A stretch of DNA of 32,204 nt from a virus: positions 1 to 32,204 of IMG/VR virus record IMGVR_UViG_3300033553_000805, one strand, 5' to 3'. The notes beneath the pieces were generated by a model. It had not been told where the DNA came from, searched no databases, and saw only the letters and a list, made by a program, of their open reading frames with translations. The position numbers were made by a program, and so were the translations under genes. This document shows positions 8,359-31,510 of the stretch, piece by piece. The number at the start of each line of letters is the position of its first letter. The first letter of the stretch is position 1.

Positions 8359-8699
8359 TTAGAACTCCTTTTGTAGTGGGTTGGATATTTGGCGCGGTGG
8401 TATAGATTCACCGCCGTATAGAATGCCCAGACCGTAAATCTGGATGCTCCGTTCTCTTGTATTGCTTCTTTGAAAAGGTCGTCAGCAAGCGGGTATTTTT
8501 CCAGCTCACAGAGGTAGTCGTGGACAACCACCCCTTTCATAAAGTCGCTGCGATGCGGCGGCCAGATGCTCCATAGCGCGCGCGGGATATTTGCCCCGTT
8601 CGTCACAAAGCCAGCGGGGATTTGTATGTTTTTGTATTTGAACGGGGCGAGCAACCGGTATCGGTTGCCGCTGATCGGTTCGAGGGTCAGGATCTTCAT
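8355..8699 (-). CDS. DUF1353 family protein
   Basis: 114 residues with the DUF1353 pattern: a beta N-terminus, IPAGFVTNGANIPRALWSIWPP, then VVVHDYLCE and a C-terminal helix. The HD in VVVHDYL and nearby polar residues are conserved in the family, whose function is not established. It occurs in many phages next to tail genes. Here it is coupled by 4-base overlaps both to the preceding chaperone-like gene and to the sheath gene. Confidence 0.82.
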   Translation of the reverse strand: MKILTLEPISGNRYRLLAPFKYKNIQIPAGFVTNGANIPRALWSIWPPHRSDFMKGVVVHDYLCELEKYPLADDLFKEAIQENGASRFTVWAFYTAVNLYHRAKYPTHYKRSSK

Positions 8700-9214
8700 A
8701 ACAGATCCTCCTGAGCCTGTCTTGCACCGATCATCACGCCTACTGCCGAAGAGTATAAATCTGCTTTTTCGATAATCTTACCGACCAGATAATCCTTCGG
8801 CACACCTCTCGCATCTGCAAGCGCATCGATCATCGGTGTAGCAACTAGCGGATCGGCCAGGTATGTTCTTGCCTCCGTCTCTTGTTTCGTCCAGCTTGTG
8901 CGCTCGGCTTCGGGCACTCCGCTTATGAGCGCGTAAACTTTCGCATCAAACTCGTCATTAATAACTTGAAGTTTTCGCTTGACCTGGCTTGTCTCTTTGA
9001 CGAGCAGTGAAAAGGCATCCTTCGTTATCTCAACACAGTTGATCTCAAGCGGCTGTGAAGCGATAAGCGCGGTGATCTCTGCTTCTGTCTCCGCCTCGAT
9101 GCTCACTGCGGGCACGTCAAAGTAATTTACTTTGACAGTCTCGCTGCCTCCTCTAAACTCAAGCACCGTGTGCTCCGCCTGCACTTTTTGAAAACTCACA
9201 TATTTAATAAACAC
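8696..9214 (-). CDS. Tail-fibre-associated or assembly protein
   Basis: 172 residues. The C-terminal half (WTKQETEARTYLADP, PMIDALADARGVPKDYLVGKIIEKADLY, then GARQAQEDLL) is a helical module that is frequent in proteins encoded after phage tail fibre genes and is thought to help fibre folding or attachment. The N-terminal half is beta-rich and not recognised. The start is a GTG at 9214 with GGAGGAG upstream; the codon overlaps the stop of the small Avd-like reading frame. Confidence 0.6.
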   Translation of the reverse strand: MFIKYVSFQKVQAEHTVLEFRGGSETVKVNYFDVPAVSIEAETEAEITALIASQPLEINCVEITKDAFSLLVKETSQVKRKLQVINDEFDAKVYALISGVPEAERTSWTKQETEARTYLADPLVATPMIDALADARGVPKDYLVGKIIEKADLYSSAVGVMIGARQAQEDLL

Positions 9215-9341
9215 GATTGACTCCTCCTTGGTAATAATTTAAAAACGTCCGCCCTCTTGGGAAATGGTTGAGATAAACTGTAAGTAGCTTAATCATCTCC
9301 ATGTATTTTCGGTTGAGTACCGCTTCGCTGTGGACTCCCAT
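9204..9341 (-). pseudogene. Avd-like fragment of a diversity-generating retroelement
   Basis: A 45-residue reading frame directly after the fibre gene. Its core (KYMEMIKLLTVYLNHFPR) resembles the first helix of the accessory variability determinant Avd, the four-helix-bundle protein that usually follows the variable gene of such elements. Full Avd proteins have about 110-130 residues, so this would be the N-terminal third joined to unrelated sequence (TFLNYYQGGVNRVY). It has GGGGAG eight bases before the ATG at 9341 and ends overlapping the next gene's GTG. The similarity is from memory of the family, not from a search, so it is tentative. Confidence 0.4.
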
Positions 9342-9370
9342 TAGCTACGCTCCCCGCTCACTGTCGTTCC

Positions 9371-11164
9371 CTACACACATAAGAACGAGGCCCGCCCGCC
9401 GACAAAGTCGCTCGAATGCGTGCGCGAACCGTTGAGATTGACCGTCGCGACCCCGGCACCCGAAGAGTAAACCCAGTTGCCGCCGCGGATACAAGCCATT
9501 TGGTCAATAAGGTTTCGGTAAAAACCATCATTCCCGAAGTCGGTCGTTCCTGTTATACTCACCCCTGTAGCAGCTGGTATACCGAACATTGTTCGCTTGT
9601 ATGCTGCACTTGTTCTGTCAGTACTCATCGCGAATACTTGGTTGGTTCCGTTCCCGAAATAGACTGTACTGACGTCAAATACGACATCCGAGATATCAAC
9701 TACATCATAAAGGTTCAGGTCATAAGCACCGCCCGATCCTGCTGTGATGCTGTCGTTCATGATGGTTCGAATGTCCGCACTCTCTTTTAGCATCAAGAAG
9801 CCGTTTGCCGTGTATCGGATGAAGCCCGAAGCAACTTCCCACATATTTCCGTTCAGGTCTGCTATACCGCAGGCTTGGCCGTTGTGCGTAGTCTTTGCAA
9901 AGTTTGATGCCGAGCCGGTTAGGCCACAGTTGCTATAGCCCGAAGAAGCGTATAGAACGCTCGCGTCCTGCACATCTGAGAGGGCATTGTTATTGCAGCC
10001 CTTTGGAAGTTTCGGGAGCACGTCGATAAAGGCGCAGGCTATTGTAGAGAGGGCCACTTCGCCGTGTGCTTTGGCCATTCGTGCGAGCATAGAGTAGTGA
10101 TAAGCCGGAGTCAAAAATGCTTCTACAGACATCGTCTTCACCGCGGTGTAAAGTCCGCCGTAATTGTTGACCGGGGCGCCTGCGAGTGTTGAGATCGGGT
10201 TGTGAACTGAGTTCGTACTCATCGGGTCTTTGAAGCGCTGGGCTGAGGCGATCGTGCCGTTTTTGGTGATCTGGTACTTAGCGATAAATACGCACGGGAT
10301 TTCAATCCCCCCGTTGATGAAGCTTCGCTCTAGTACAAAGCCTGTAGCTGGGACATCACTATACTCGAAAGTGTTCCCGGTGATTTTGATGTAATGCTTA
10401 GGCATACAGCAGAGTATTGCGCCGCTATAGCCGTGCATGTAATTCCCGTAATTCTCATGCCCGATCACATCATGGCCGCTCAGAGGAATGGCACCTATCT
10501 GCTCGTACCATGCCTTTTGTGCAGTAGCCACACCAAAGCCGATCTCACCTTTTACGCCGAGGGAGTAGATGAGCGGGTCAAGGCCTGTGCGGATATCGAC
10601 ATATTTTTTTGAGGCCGCGTGCTGTGCTGCTGTCGGGTCGGGGATGATCGGGCTGCTCTCTAGGGTGAGCGTGCCGGTTTTTGTTTGGTCGCCAGCAATC
10701 TTCAGATAAGTAGCATCTGTAAAAGCTCTGCTTGCAAGCACGACAGCCGGGTCTATTTTGAGCTCAACCGAAGAAGCGCTGCTGACTTCTATGATGACTT
10801 TGATATAAAGATCTTTTGCAGATCCGCTGGCTAGTGTTGGCTTGTAAGTGTCCGGGTAGCTTCCGATGGCGATCATGTCTCCGGCAAGATCGAATAGGCC
10901 TACTTCGCGCACGGTAAAGCCGCCGTCTGTAGATGGGATGTATCCCTCTGCGACTATCCAGTCAGGGTTTACCGGATCAACATCAATACTATTAAGCGCA
11001 GCGCGCCATACCTCGTTCGCAAGGACATTATCTGTCTGATCAGGGACGATCTCGACCCCGTTGCCGTCGCCTACAGCGATGTGAGTCAGCTGTACTACAG
11101 TGCCCAGCGCCGTAGCGTTGGCGATTTTTGCTTTTCCGATGTCTGTTAAAATTGTATAAAACAC
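9371..11164 (-). CDS. Tail fibre with C-type-lectin-like, DGR-variable C-terminus
   Basis: 597 residues. The N-terminus (MFYTILTDIGKAKIANA, then GGFTVREVGLFDLAGDMIAIGSYPDTYKP) is the tail-collar/fibre attachment domain of gpH-like fibres. A segment with PTAAQHAASKKYVD is a common linker. The C-terminal part (GIADLNGNMWEVASGFIR, then RGGNW near 560-564) belongs to the C-type lectin / formylglycine-generating-enzyme fold used by retroelement-diversified receptor-binding proteins. The last 38 residues have a conserved frame (RGGNW, AGV, VNLN, VGGRAS) around positions whose codons look altered from AAC/AAT. It should bind the host receptor. The GTG at 11164 has AAGGAG upstream. Confidence 0.88.
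   Translation of the reverse strand: MFYTILTDIGKAKIANATALGTVVQLTHIAVGDGNGVEIVPDQTDNVLANEVWRAALNSIDVDPVNPDWIVAEGYIPSTDGGFTVREVGLFDLAGDMIAIGSYPDTYKPTLASGSAKDLYIKVIIEVSSASSVELKIDPAVVLASRAFTDATYLKIAGDQTKTGTLTLESSPIIPDPTAAQHAASKKYVDIRTGLDPLIYSLGVKGEIGFGVATAQKAWYEQIGAIPLSGHDVIGHENYGNYMHGYSGAILCCMPKHYIKITGNTFEYSDVPATGFVLERSFINGGIEIPCVFIAKYQITKNGTIASAQRFKDPMSTNSVHNPISTLAGAPVNNYGGLYTAVKTMSVEAFLTPAYHYSMLARMAKAHGEVALSTIACAFIDVLPKLPKGCNNNALSDVQDASVLYASSGYSNCGLTGSASNFAKTTHNGQACGIADLNGNMWEVASGFIRYTANGFLMLKESADIRTIMNDSITAGSGGAYDLNLYDVVDISDVVFDVSTVYFGNGTNQVFAMSTDRTSAAYKRTMFGIPAATGVSITGTTDFGNDGFYRNLIDQMACIRGGNWVYSSGAGVATVNLNGSRTHSSDFVGGRASFLCV
9374..9487 (-). other. Candidate DGR variable repeat (VR)
   Basis: The last 38 codons of the fibre gene. 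Related variable proteins commonly have Asn codons (AAC/AAT) in the template at exposed positions; here the matching positions hold TAC, GGT, CAT, AGC, GAC and TTT, i.e. NNC/NNT codons changed at the first two bases, between unchanged blocks (TGG, GCC GGG GTC, GTC AAT CTC AAC, GTC GGC GGG CGG). This is the mark of adenine-directed mutagenesis. No template repeat or reverse transcriptase is seen in the window, so the comparison is with the family consensus only. Confidence 0.55.
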
Positions 11165-28042: not shown

Positions 28043-28562
28043 CTCGCTTCTCCTTGTCGATAAACAACGTTCGTTTATTCTTTGTTCTTGGGCCGTCTTC
28101 TATGACCCCAAAAGCTTTAAAATCTTTGAAACAACGAATGACAACAGCTGCTGACACATTCATGCCAACACTCTCAACAATCTCTTTTTTTGTCATGTAC
28201 TTTTGTGTCATTGCACTTAGAAGTTTTTGCTTTTCTTTGGCCCACGAAGCATCATCTACATCAATATTCTCTTTGATATTGTGGTCATACATATTTCCAT
28301 TGACCATTGAGGGGCATATAGGACCCGTATCTTTCAGCATCACATAGACACGTTCAACATACTGATTTCGCTCAACCTCTTCAAGTCGAATGTATCCAGC
28401 CATTTCTAAATGCCACAACACGGGTTTAATGTAGGCTTGAGTAAGATCAAGCACCGTCATCACGTCGCCGACACGAAAAAGTTTATTTCGGCGGATGTAT
28501 TTCCAAACCTTTTCTTTATTCGTCTGCTTTCGTTTACAACGTTTAAGATTTGCTGATCCCAT
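27990..28562 (-). CDS. Early winged-helix protein
   Basis: 190 residues from the ATG at 28562, which has AGGGG upstream; the frame open to 28613 is not supported by a site. Two winged-helix-like parts: NKEKVWKYIRRNKLFRVGDVMTVLDLTQAYIKPVLWHLEMAGYI with VERVYVMLKDTGPICP, and a second one from about 110 (LLSAMTQKYMTKKEIVESVGMNVSAAVVIRCFKDFKAFGVI in parts). The DTGP-x-x-P end of the first module is seen in early proteins of other Mu-like phages. It starts within the end of MuB. DNA binding is likely. Confidence 0.66.
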   Translation of the reverse strand: MGSANLKRCKRKQTNKEKVWKYIRRNKLFRVGDVMTVLDLTQAYIKPVLWHLEMAGYIRLEEVERNQYVERVYVMLKDTGPICPSMVNGNMYDHNIKENIDVDDASWAKEKQKLLSAMTQKYMTKKEIVESVGMNVSAAVVIRCFKDFKAFGVIEDGPRTKNKRTLFIDKEKRDELIRAIEQGLRPTRSA

Positions 28563-29250
28563 GCTCGACCCCTGATGCCTTAAATGTAGCGAGATCGACG
28601 CTGTCGATACCATTCATTTCACAAAACTTCTCCAGTCTCAGCAGCATGACTTTGATCTGTCTCAGGTTGGGGTACTTTGTTACGAAGAAATTTATCAGAT
28701 CGGCTTCAATGATCACCGCGCACAATCCGCAGTACTTCTCGATATCGCTCCTGCCTATCTGCTCAAACACGATCAGCTCTACGATACGGCTGTAATAGTG
28801 GCGGTGGCGTTTAAACTTAGCGTTCGCCTCCTCCATTCCGACAAAGAAGAGGATGATATTTGTCTCGTCATGCAGATCGCGCAGCATCTCCAGCACGTTT
28901 GTCTTGTCCGCTTTGAGCAGCGCGTCCACCTCGTCTATGATCACCGTCCGCGGCTCGACCAGAAATGACTCCCGGATGCGTTCATACTTGGCGGGTGAAT
29001 GCCCGGTTGCGTCAAGCGTGAGCTCGGTGCACAGCTTCGAAAGAAGAGAGCTTTTCGACCAGGTCTGCGCAGCTCTTAACAAGATCGCGTTCTCCTTGGC
29101 GGCGATACGTTCTAAAGAAAAGGTTTTACCAAGTCCAAAGTTCCCAAATCCAAGCCCCATCCTTGGGGCCGTTGAAGGAAGCGAATCCAGATTTGAAAAA
29201 GCTTCGACTAATTTGATATAATTTTGCGTTTCGACAAACTCTTCGCGCAT
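28543..29250 (-). CDS. B: Transposition AAA+ ATPase (MuB/TnsC-like)
   Basis: 235 residues from the ATG at 29250, with AGGAG six bases upstream; the open frame continues to 29433 but overlaps MuA. Walker A is GFGNFGLGKT (34-43), Walker B RTVIIDEVDALL (D106, E107), and a sensor region is at LFFVGME. MuB binds target DNA in an ATP-dependent filament, activates MuA and directs it away from phage DNA (target immunity). Mu B (about 312 residues) has an extra N-terminal HTH domain, which is absent unless an upstream start is used. Confidence 0.9.
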   Translation of the reverse strand: MREEFVETQNYIKLVEAFSNLDSLPSTAPRMGLGFGNFGLGKTFSLERIAAKENAILLRAAQTWSKSSLLSKLCTELTLDATGHSPAKYERIRESFLVEPRTVIIDEVDALLKADKTNVLEMLRDLHDETNIILFFVGMEEANAKFKRHRHYYSRIVELIVFEQIGRSDIEKYCGLCAVIIEADLINFFVTKYPNLRQIKVMLLRLEKFCEMNGIDSVDLATFKASGVEHGISKS

Positions 29251-29339
29251 GATGACTCCTATTTGTGGCCAGGGTTTCCCCGACAGTTGATTTGTTCGGT
29301 CTTTTTTCTTCGTCCATGAATCGAAAGACTCGACCATCG

Positions 29340-29353
29340 GCCGCATACGCGGC
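29340..29353 (-). other. Short GC hairpin at the end of MuA
   Basis: GCCGC-ATAC-GCGGC just after the MuA stop (29357), in the 106-base gap before MuB. No T tract, so it may only set the MuA to MuB ratio through mRNA stability. The rest of this gap holds no gene on either strand that I can support. Confidence 0.35.
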
Positions 29354-29356
29354 TGA

Positions 29357-31510
29357 CTATCCAATCCTTTTTGCCTTTTCTGCCATCTCCCACAGATCGG
29401 GATACGCGTTGGCGATCTTCTTTGTGCTTTCATCCACCATGTTGTTGTTAATGTCCCACAGCAGACGGTCGTAAAAGTTCTGAAACATAGGCCTGCCCGA
29501 GGGCATCAGTTTCTCGCCTTGCATGTTCATTACGTTCGATCTTTCGACAGTTTCCACGTCCTGCTCGGCAAAGGTTCTGTCCATGACAGCACGGATAGCC
29601 GGTGTAGACTTGGAAACTGCCATCGTAGAAGCCGGAAGCTCTCTGCCGCGCTCAAGCGCAGCGGCCTCGATGCGGTCCTTGATGGTCGGGTCAAGCCGTC
29701 GGCTCGTCTCCTCCCACTCCTCCGCCAGCTTCGCCATTTCACGGCTGATGCGGTGCGACATGCGCTTACCCTCTGCCAGTTCGGCGCGGCTCTTGCCGCT
29801 CCAGTCATAATCCTCCGCGATGCAGATCGGCGCATGGTTCATCTCGTAGACGTAAACGATCCCCATGTTGTCATCCGTCATGATCCGCACATGTTCACCG
29901 ACAAAAGAGGCCAGCTTGACGTGCTGATAAAGCGCGCCGCCAAGGCGTATGCCCTTTTTCCCGACCTTTCGCTCGAAGCTTTCGCCCAGCAAAATGTCGA
30001 GCATACGCGGGTCGGGAACCATCTTCACCCAGCTCACGCTGTCGTGCCACTTCTTGATCGGCGCCATGTTCAGCGTGCCGTGTTTTCGGCGCTCGTAGAT
30101 GTTATCGACCCAGGCGTCTATCCATTGCTGCAGTGCTGCCGCATCCACGGGCACCTGTATCTCAAGCCCGAGGTTCTCCTTCTTGATGCGAAACGCGTCC
30201 ACAAAAGATTTCTTCTCTCGCGTCTTGGCCTCCTCGTACCATTTCGACTTGCTCTCTATCTTGTGGGCAAACCCCCGCCGCGACTCGATGCGCGACTTTT
30301 CCGCCACGCTGTGCCCGGTGTAGCCCTCAAGCTCCTCGAACAGCTCCCGCGACATCGTCCCGAACATCCGCTCGATGTGCGGTTTCATGTCACCCGAAAA
30401 CGGCGGCACCGTCTCCTGCGTGATGCCGAGGTTGTAGCAGATGGACGCGAAGTGGTTCGACTTATAGTCCTTGCCGTTGTCGATCACCACGTTCTCCGGG
30501 ATGCCGAGCTTCAGCATCGCCTTTCGAAGCAGCCGGGCGATAGAGTAGCTGCTGGAGCGCTCATCTACCCAGAACGTCACCCGTCGGCTGAAGACATCGA
30601 TCATCCCCAGGATGGCATAACGCTTGCCATCTTTGGTAATGACGTCCGCAGGCGTAGAGTCGAGCTCCCAGTAGTGGTTCGGGTACTTCGCTTTTTCGTC
30701 GAGGCTTCCGAACCCCGCCATCCGCTTGTTTTTCCATCCGTCCGCGTCCTGGACAAACTCGTACATACTCGCGTTCTTGATCTTCCAGCGTTTTAAGAAG
30801 TTGTTGAGCACGTCATAGCTCACCATCTCCTCTGCAAAACCGTGCAGCATGTTCTGGTAGATCGCACTGACCCGCAGCGGGTTGTCACGCCTGCACAGCA
30901 TCCGCACCGCCATATCCTGCTGCTCCTGGCTCATCAGCGTCGTGCCTTTTTTCGTTCCGCGCTTGTCAAGCAGGGCGATGAGCGGCGACGTGCCCGACGC
31001 TCTGGCCTCTTCGACCGCCTTCTTCCAGCGAAACAGCTTCATCTCTGTCGTCTTGATCAGTGAAAATTCACTCCCAAGCTCCCGGATAAACTGCTTTGCC
31101 GTGATCCGCTTGTCTCGGTTCTCATACCGTTCGCAGGCCTCCATCCGAAGCAGAGCCTTTTCGCGCTGCTCTTTGGTCGCATTCAGGTACTCGCTCATGT
31201 CCGGAGCTACGACGTCGGCCGCTTCCGATGCCTTTTTTTCAGTTTTTGAATCTGAAATGTTAGTTATTGCATCAAATGCGCAGGGCAGCCCGGCCTCGTC
31301 GTAGGTGTCGGGCCGCTCAAGCGTACCGGCAGCGATCGCTGCACTCAGGGCCGACTTATCGACGCCGATCAGCAGCTTCTTTCCGCCTCGCCCTTTGCCG
31401 TCGATGTAAACATATAAATATTTATCAGCACCGCGTTTAACGGCCTTTTTCAATGCTTCATATCCAATATCTAAAACCTTGGATGCCTCTCTTCCGTCAA
31501 CATAAACCAT
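29357..31510 (-). CDS. A: DDE transposase (MuA-like)
   Basis: 717 residues. The N-terminus (about 1-55, EASKVLDIGYEALKKAVKRG) is the Mu DNA-binding domain for the transposase sites. The RNase H-like core has D284 in WELDSTPADV, D344 in VVIDNGKDY and E380 in KPHIERMFGTM, the DDE triad. A beta-barrel follows at about 510-560 (GGALYQHVKLASFVGEHV). The end, about 600-717, is charged, as in domain III that contacts MuB and ClpX. It carries out strand transfer at the prophage ends for integration and replication. The ribosome site is weak (AGGT), so a lower rate of synthesis is possible. Confidence 0.95.
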   Translation of the reverse strand: MVYVDGREASKVLDIGYEALKKAVKRGADKYLYVYIDGKGRGGKKLLIGVDKSALSAAIAAGTLERPDTYDEAGLPCAFDAITNISDSKTEKKASEAADVVAPDMSEYLNATKEQREKALLRMEACERYENRDKRITAKQFIRELGSEFSLIKTTEMKLFRWKKAVEEARASGTSPLIALLDKRGTKKGTTLMSQEQQDMAVRMLCRRDNPLRVSAIYQNMLHGFAEEMVSYDVLNNFLKRWKIKNASMYEFVQDADGWKNKRMAGFGSLDEKAKYPNHYWELDSTPADVITKDGKRYAILGMIDVFSRRVTFWVDERSSSYSIARLLRKAMLKLGIPENVVIDNGKDYKSNHFASICYNLGITQETVPPFSGDMKPHIERMFGTMSRELFEELEGYTGHSVAEKSRIESRRGFAHKIESKSKWYEEAKTREKKSFVDAFRIKKENLGLEIQVPVDAAALQQWIDAWVDNIYERRKHGTLNMAPIKKWHDSVSWVKMVPDPRMLDILLGESFERKVGKKGIRLGGALYQHVKLASFVGEHVRIMTDDNMGIVYVYEMNHAPICIAEDYDWSGKSRAELAEGKRMSHRISREMAKLAEEWEETSRRLDPTIKDRIEAAALERGRELPASTMAVSKSTPAIRAVMDRTFAEQDVETVERSNVMNMQGEKLMPSGRPMFQNFYDRLLWDINNNMVDESTKKIANAYPDLWEMAEKAKRIG

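Follow-up and report, generated by a model that had tools for sequence, protein, structure and literature searches.

The diversity-generating retroelement (DGR) of Bordetella phage BPP-1 is organized as mtd-avd-TR-brt, an order in which a lectin-fold tail-fibre target with its variable region (VR) precedes the accessory gene avd, the template repeat (TR) and the reverse transcriptase (RT), and a GRNA-loop element lies after the VR. Phage DGRs carry GRNA-loop hairpins with stems of 7–10 bp (PMC3240598). TaqVP, the DGR variable protein of Thermus aquaticus (5VF4), carries its VR at the same C-terminal place as the fibre described here, with which it shares 16% identity. Losses of the DGR engine are already on record: the RT is fragmented or deleted in Epsilon crAss-like phages, whose receptor-binding protein retains the VR pattern (PMC11054128), Treponema denticola isolates carry DGR target genes without a TR or RT (PMC4891356), and a decayed RT copy is reported from Pseudogulbenkiania (PMC3521204).

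The 32,204-nucleotide stretch of DNA analysed here, which we call the window, thus adds another case of a known phenomenon. Its intact relatives have the BPP-1 order and, as in BPP-1, a lectin-fold fibre target, with a likely counterpart of the GRNA-loop element after the VR, but the window itself is a Mu-like prophage with a P2-type tail fibre in which avd and RT are reduced to stubs and the TR is missing. The Epsilon crAss-like phages are unrelated to the window, whose scar can be placed to the single base by comparison with close relatives that are intact, and the orphan targets of T. denticola, left like this one after loss of the core cassette, are bacterial proteins rather than a prophage fibre. 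We found no earlier report, in the literature searched, of a base-level scar with intact sisters together with a count of independent losses. Our analysis indicates that the fibre tip is very probably an orphaned DGR target, its engine lost by a single deletion and its specificity now fixed.

The fibre gene sits among Mu-like and tail-module genes, and the window also encodes head, terminase, portal and baseplate genes. The features that bear on the argument are these:

8696–9214, minus strand: next tail-module gene, phrog_2618, function unknown; follows the RT in intact relatives
9196–9252, minus strand: RT stub, last 18 codons plus stop, 79% identical to residues 414–432 of the RT of the relative L025
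9253–9254, no strand: apparent deletion junction; the matching bases of L025, 2464 and 3986, are separated by 1,521 bp
9254–9341, minus strand: avd stub, 29 codons from the start of the accessory gene, by alignment to L025:2377-2766
9358–9369, minus strand: GAACGACAGTGA, a short GA-NN-GRNA-NN-GA element just past the fibre stop, recognized by family enrichment
9371–11164, minus strand: tail-collar fibre, GTG start, 597 residues (ORF call, PF12571, AlphaFold2 model, TaqVP match)
9388–9496, minus strand: orphan VR, 109 nt, by homology to the L025 (81%) and L011 (74%) template repeats
28543–29433: TniB-like ATPase
29357–31510: transposase with rve and Mu C-terminal domains

The N-terminus of the fibre is a phage tail-collar domain (PF12571, Pfam, E = 2e-55), and its C-terminal ~400 residues are predicted to adopt a C-type-lectin/formylglycine-generating-enzyme fold. 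An AlphaFold2 model built on an alignment of 28 family sequences has a mean pLDDT of 79 and a pTM of 0.86, and is unreliable at residues ~182–242 and 367–371. Its best solved match is the DGR target TaqVP (5vf4; Z = 24.1 over 290 aligned residues), with weaker matches to Mtd (Z ~10) and TvpA (Z = 9.1) and then to formylglycine-generating enzymes (8–8.5). The C-type lectin fold that the original prediction had proposed is thereby borne out by structure prediction, and the modelled fold carries the VR at its C-terminus.

Relatives of this fibre differ in how much of it they share. A second prophage in the same genome (L010, G000:C5:116682-117266) encodes a fibre with residues 1–195 in common at 90%, while its tip is unrelated, lacks a VR and gives a weak Collar-domain match; the sequences present this pair as an apparent example of tip swapping. 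The fibre open frame of L011 (L011:8434-11347) is 971 codons long and matches residues 150–597 of the window fibre only; at the N-terminus it therefore differs from the window fibre and is longer. Phage GenBank records hold distant fibre relatives only, at 27–35% identity, and the plasmid search returned no fibre relatives. Campylobacter phages CP220, CP21, CPt10 and their relatives share the lectin scaffold at 27–29% (query 8–275 of 399); these matches end before the VR, so those proteins may be VR-less cousins.

The last ~37 codons of the fibre are the VR of a DGR. The tip motif RGGNWVYSSGAGVATVNLNGSRTHSSDFVGGRASFLCV, with its alternating fixed and variable positions, is present where it had been predicted, although the VR extends from 9388 to 9496, slightly upstream of the 9374–9487 first proposed. 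Six codons that had been taken to derive from asparagine codons (TAC, GGT, CAT, AGC, GAC and TTT) all lie opposite AAC or AAT in the templates of L025 and L011, GGT being codon 23 of the window-versus-template alignment. As the window's own template is lost, its adenine contrast was measured on the relatives' templates, using only those template columns at which L025 and L011 agree: the window VR mismatches 8 of 19 adenine columns and 2 of the 61 columns with another base (Fisher p = 9e-5), a contrast that is weaker against either single relative's template (p = 0.002 and 0.004). From these stand-in templates, the VR differs mainly at adenines. Outside the VR, the fibre and that of L025 differ by 237 synonymous and 76 non-synonymous codons, and inside it by 1 and 15 (p = 2e-8), suggesting that the fibre is under purifying selection save where the DGR wrote. 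Comparison of fibre tips among related prophages thus gave the result expected of a DGR target, with VR differences almost all non-synonymous and concentrated at template adenines. At the relatives' AAC/AAT sites, 10 of 10 window codons end in C or T, as a fairly recent last rewriting would predict.

The closest relatives of the window fibre, L025 (85% amino acid identity) and L011 (82%), both retain intact cassettes in the order fibre(VR), avd, TR and RT, with the TR ~451–560 nt past the fibre stop; the avd of L025 (L025:2377-2766) matches PF22296 (bAvd family). On a fibre tree built without the VR, the window falls between these two intact relatives. The window aligns to L025 over the whole fibre and 117 nt past its stop, to 9254 (avd codon 29), and the alignment restarts at 9253, with identity of 79% upstream of the breakpoint and, on its downstream side, 95% over 3.2 kb. 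A single clean deletion of 1,521 bp appears to have removed most of avd, the entire TR and nearly all of the RT. What remains of the accessory gene is the 29-codon stub, which continues out of frame into a 45-codon ORF (9204–9341). The RT stub overlaps the start of the next gene, 8696–9214, and retention of this overlapping tail may explain where the deletion ends. No direct repeat common to both deletion ends was found, and a deletion whose ends share no sequence is not easily put down to VR-TR recombination or to a misassembly caused by repeats. We rejected VR-TR recombination as the cause, the breakpoints lying in avd and RT, outside the repeats. Among the viral contigs searched with the junction sequence, the window is the sole carrier.

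A simple sequence of events very probably underlies these observations. An ancestor would have carried the cassette fibre(VR)-avd-TR-RT, as L025 and L011 still do; its RT, together with Avd, would have made error-prone copies of the template RNA, miscopying adenines, and this mutated cDNA would have overwritten the VR, so that the lectin scaffold stayed constant while its receptor-binding tips were renewed. The single 1,521-bp deletion at 9254/9253 would then have taken most of avd, all of the TR and nearly all of the RT while sparing the fibre and the next tail gene, and the last written specificity would have become fixed, open to further change by ordinary mutation only. The homology, the adenine pattern, the scar, the lack of an engine in the assembly and the repeated losses across the family are direct observations; we infer the past homing in this lineage from its relatives and the present freezing from the absence of an engine.

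The site just past the fibre stop retains a further trace. The window element reads GA-AC-GACA-GT-GA at 9369–9358 and has a stem of 2 Watson-Crick pairs, as opposed to the 7–10 bp reported in PMC3240598; the BPP-1 hairpin has a GC stem of that longer length, while the one here is short and flanked by GA mismatches. Across the family the element is 12 nt long, mostly GAGCGATAGCGA, and lies 0–45 nt past the VR stop; it is carried by 58 of 86 intact and 9 of 29 engine-less relatives, compared with a background of 0.2–0.3% of equal-size windows. By analogy, the element is likely the counterpart of the BPP-1 retrohoming hairpin with its GRNA loop, in a minimal form with flanking GA mismatches. No hairpin of 6 bp or more follows the VR in the window, and such long hairpins are present in 15 of the 86 intact relatives; the short GRNA element describes the post-VR site better than a long hairpin does. 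The window and L011 have the same sequence at the VR 3' end (GTCGGCGGGCGGGCCTCGTT).

The retained element and the VR 3' end shared with L011 would also suit ongoing diversification of the VR in trans, with the engine supplied by another DGR of the host or by a superinfecting relative and the local loss tolerated. Service of distant targets by one RT is known in Pseudogulbenkiania and Treponema (PMC3521204, PMC4891356), which gives this reading a precedent, and an intact cassette exists in G003, a genome of the same genus as the window's. The original prediction had held that the window contains neither an RT nor a template repeat. That claim is confirmed: no template-like repeat was found within the window, and of the RT no more than the final 18 codons are left. 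In the assembled genome (2.18 Mb, 15 contigs, ~89% complete), the only near copy of the VR was the VR itself; and searches with Pfam RVT_1, the L025 RT protein, an 11-RT profile and the 1,521 bp of L025 engine DNA gave no match beyond the VR and the RT stub. As a positive control, the 11-RT profile finds the intact RT of G003 (E = 5e-162). The search for a VR near copy and an RT thus yielded neither, and neither a functional RT nor a TR is present in the window or the assembled genome. The second prophage, on contig C5, has a different tip without a VR, which also speaks against supply in trans. With the genome ~89% complete, an engine could sit on an unassembled piece, so its absence is strong but not absolute, and we consider supply in trans very improbable. 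Between the two alternatives first put forward, the deletion scar, the avd and RT stubs, the intact sisters and the lack of an engine in the assembly favor a lost system with a frozen tip, while mutagenesis from elsewhere finds neither RT nor template in the assembly; the tip is most likely frozen.

Even less probable is a false deletion, introduced when a metagenome-derived contig was assembled, in a prophage that is really intact. The 15 contigs and 89% completeness do suggest a metagenome-assembled genome, and a VR/TR repeat of ~109 nt can confuse assemblers, but the breakpoint falls in avd and the RT 3' end, off that repeat, the ends have no sequence in common, the missing DNA does not turn up at any other place in the assembly, and unrelated assemblies show comparable scars whose breakpoints differ. 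That the tip is a conserved lectin/formylglycine-generating-enzyme motif under ordinary positive selection and never a DGR target is almost certainly wrong: such folds exist outside DGRs, but the avd and RT stubs directly downstream refute it, and 86 relatives with matching templates or RTs and differences that fall almost only at template adenines also speak against it.

Loss of the engine from this cassette is not confined to the window. We collected 122 distinct fibres with a readable tip by scanning GTDB species genomes and IMG/VR, by further scans that used family members as seeds, and by searching 228 genomes from the family to which the host belongs. By cassette status, 86 look intact (a fibre followed by avd, a TR ~450 nt downstream and/or a DGR-type RT), 29 are lost or disrupted, the window included, and 7 are cut by contig ends, so that 29 of 115 resolvable members are engine-less. 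In the 86 intact pairs, the VR differs from the TR at 57% of A, 1.0% of C, 0.8% of G and 3.4% of T, which reads as textbook adenine mutagenesis; selection of template candidates by their adenine mismatches accounts for part of this contrast, while the close match at C, G and T and the conserved TR position are not products of that selection. The best solved match of the relatives' RT profile is 8ub7 (E = 2e-75), an entry titled only 'Reverse transcriptase', which we take to be the BPP-1 DGR RT.

Twelve engine-less members bear scars with distinct breakpoints or remains (the window, L158, L151, L018, L118, L173, L186, L143, L119, L072, L147 and L195), pointing to about a dozen separate loss events independently of any tree. 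The others have no recognisable cassette between the fibre and the next gene, or other DNA there; in L091, an avd match (residues 24–123) is present with no RT or TR found. Engine status on the fibre tree without the VR, which took in 28 of the 29 engine-less members and left out L091, requires 22 changes, at least 19 of them forced by well-supported branches. These changes fall almost always at single tips, with clustering little above that of shuffled labels (33 of 500 as low). The tree alone cannot separate gain from loss, a distinction that the stubs do make, and recombination of the tail module could inflate the count of changes. At the nearest intact template's AAC/AAT sites, 98.8% of codons in intact VRs and 94% in engine-less VRs end in C or T (p = 0.001); the lower share fits slow drift after recent losses, with transferred labels adding noise.

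The window therefore offers a base-resolved case of a hypermutation system apparently switched off by deletion, its product kept and intact sister phages available as a control. With 29 of 115 cassettes lost or disrupted through at least 19 independent changes, mostly at single tips, discarding of the engine after adaptation can be tested against simple decay. A speculative and rather doubtful extension is that engine deletion is a recurrent selected end-game, in which the DGR finds a good tip and engine-dropping lineages keep it until the receptor changes, arising repeatedly and rarely founding clades, and in which orphan VRs that retain homing signals may be written anew during co-infection by an engine-bearing relative.

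Two further observations concern cassettes of this family. In L072, avd is broken after about 44–72 codons by unrelated sequence ~350–990 nt past the fibre stop that may be an insertion element, with no RT after it; its intact sister L069 is 94.5% identical over 1.5 kb of DNA outside the VR. In 23 intact cassettes (L025:2745-4040, L011:11744-13039 and others of Campylobacterota type), the TR lies in the VR's frame inside the RT open frame, with possible start codons upstream that in close relatives stand beside the avd stop (peptide MxxxGQHxNM...). The template may therefore be translated as an N-terminal tail of the RT, and a TR overlapping the RT ORF corresponds to DiGReF group 3 (PMC3521204).
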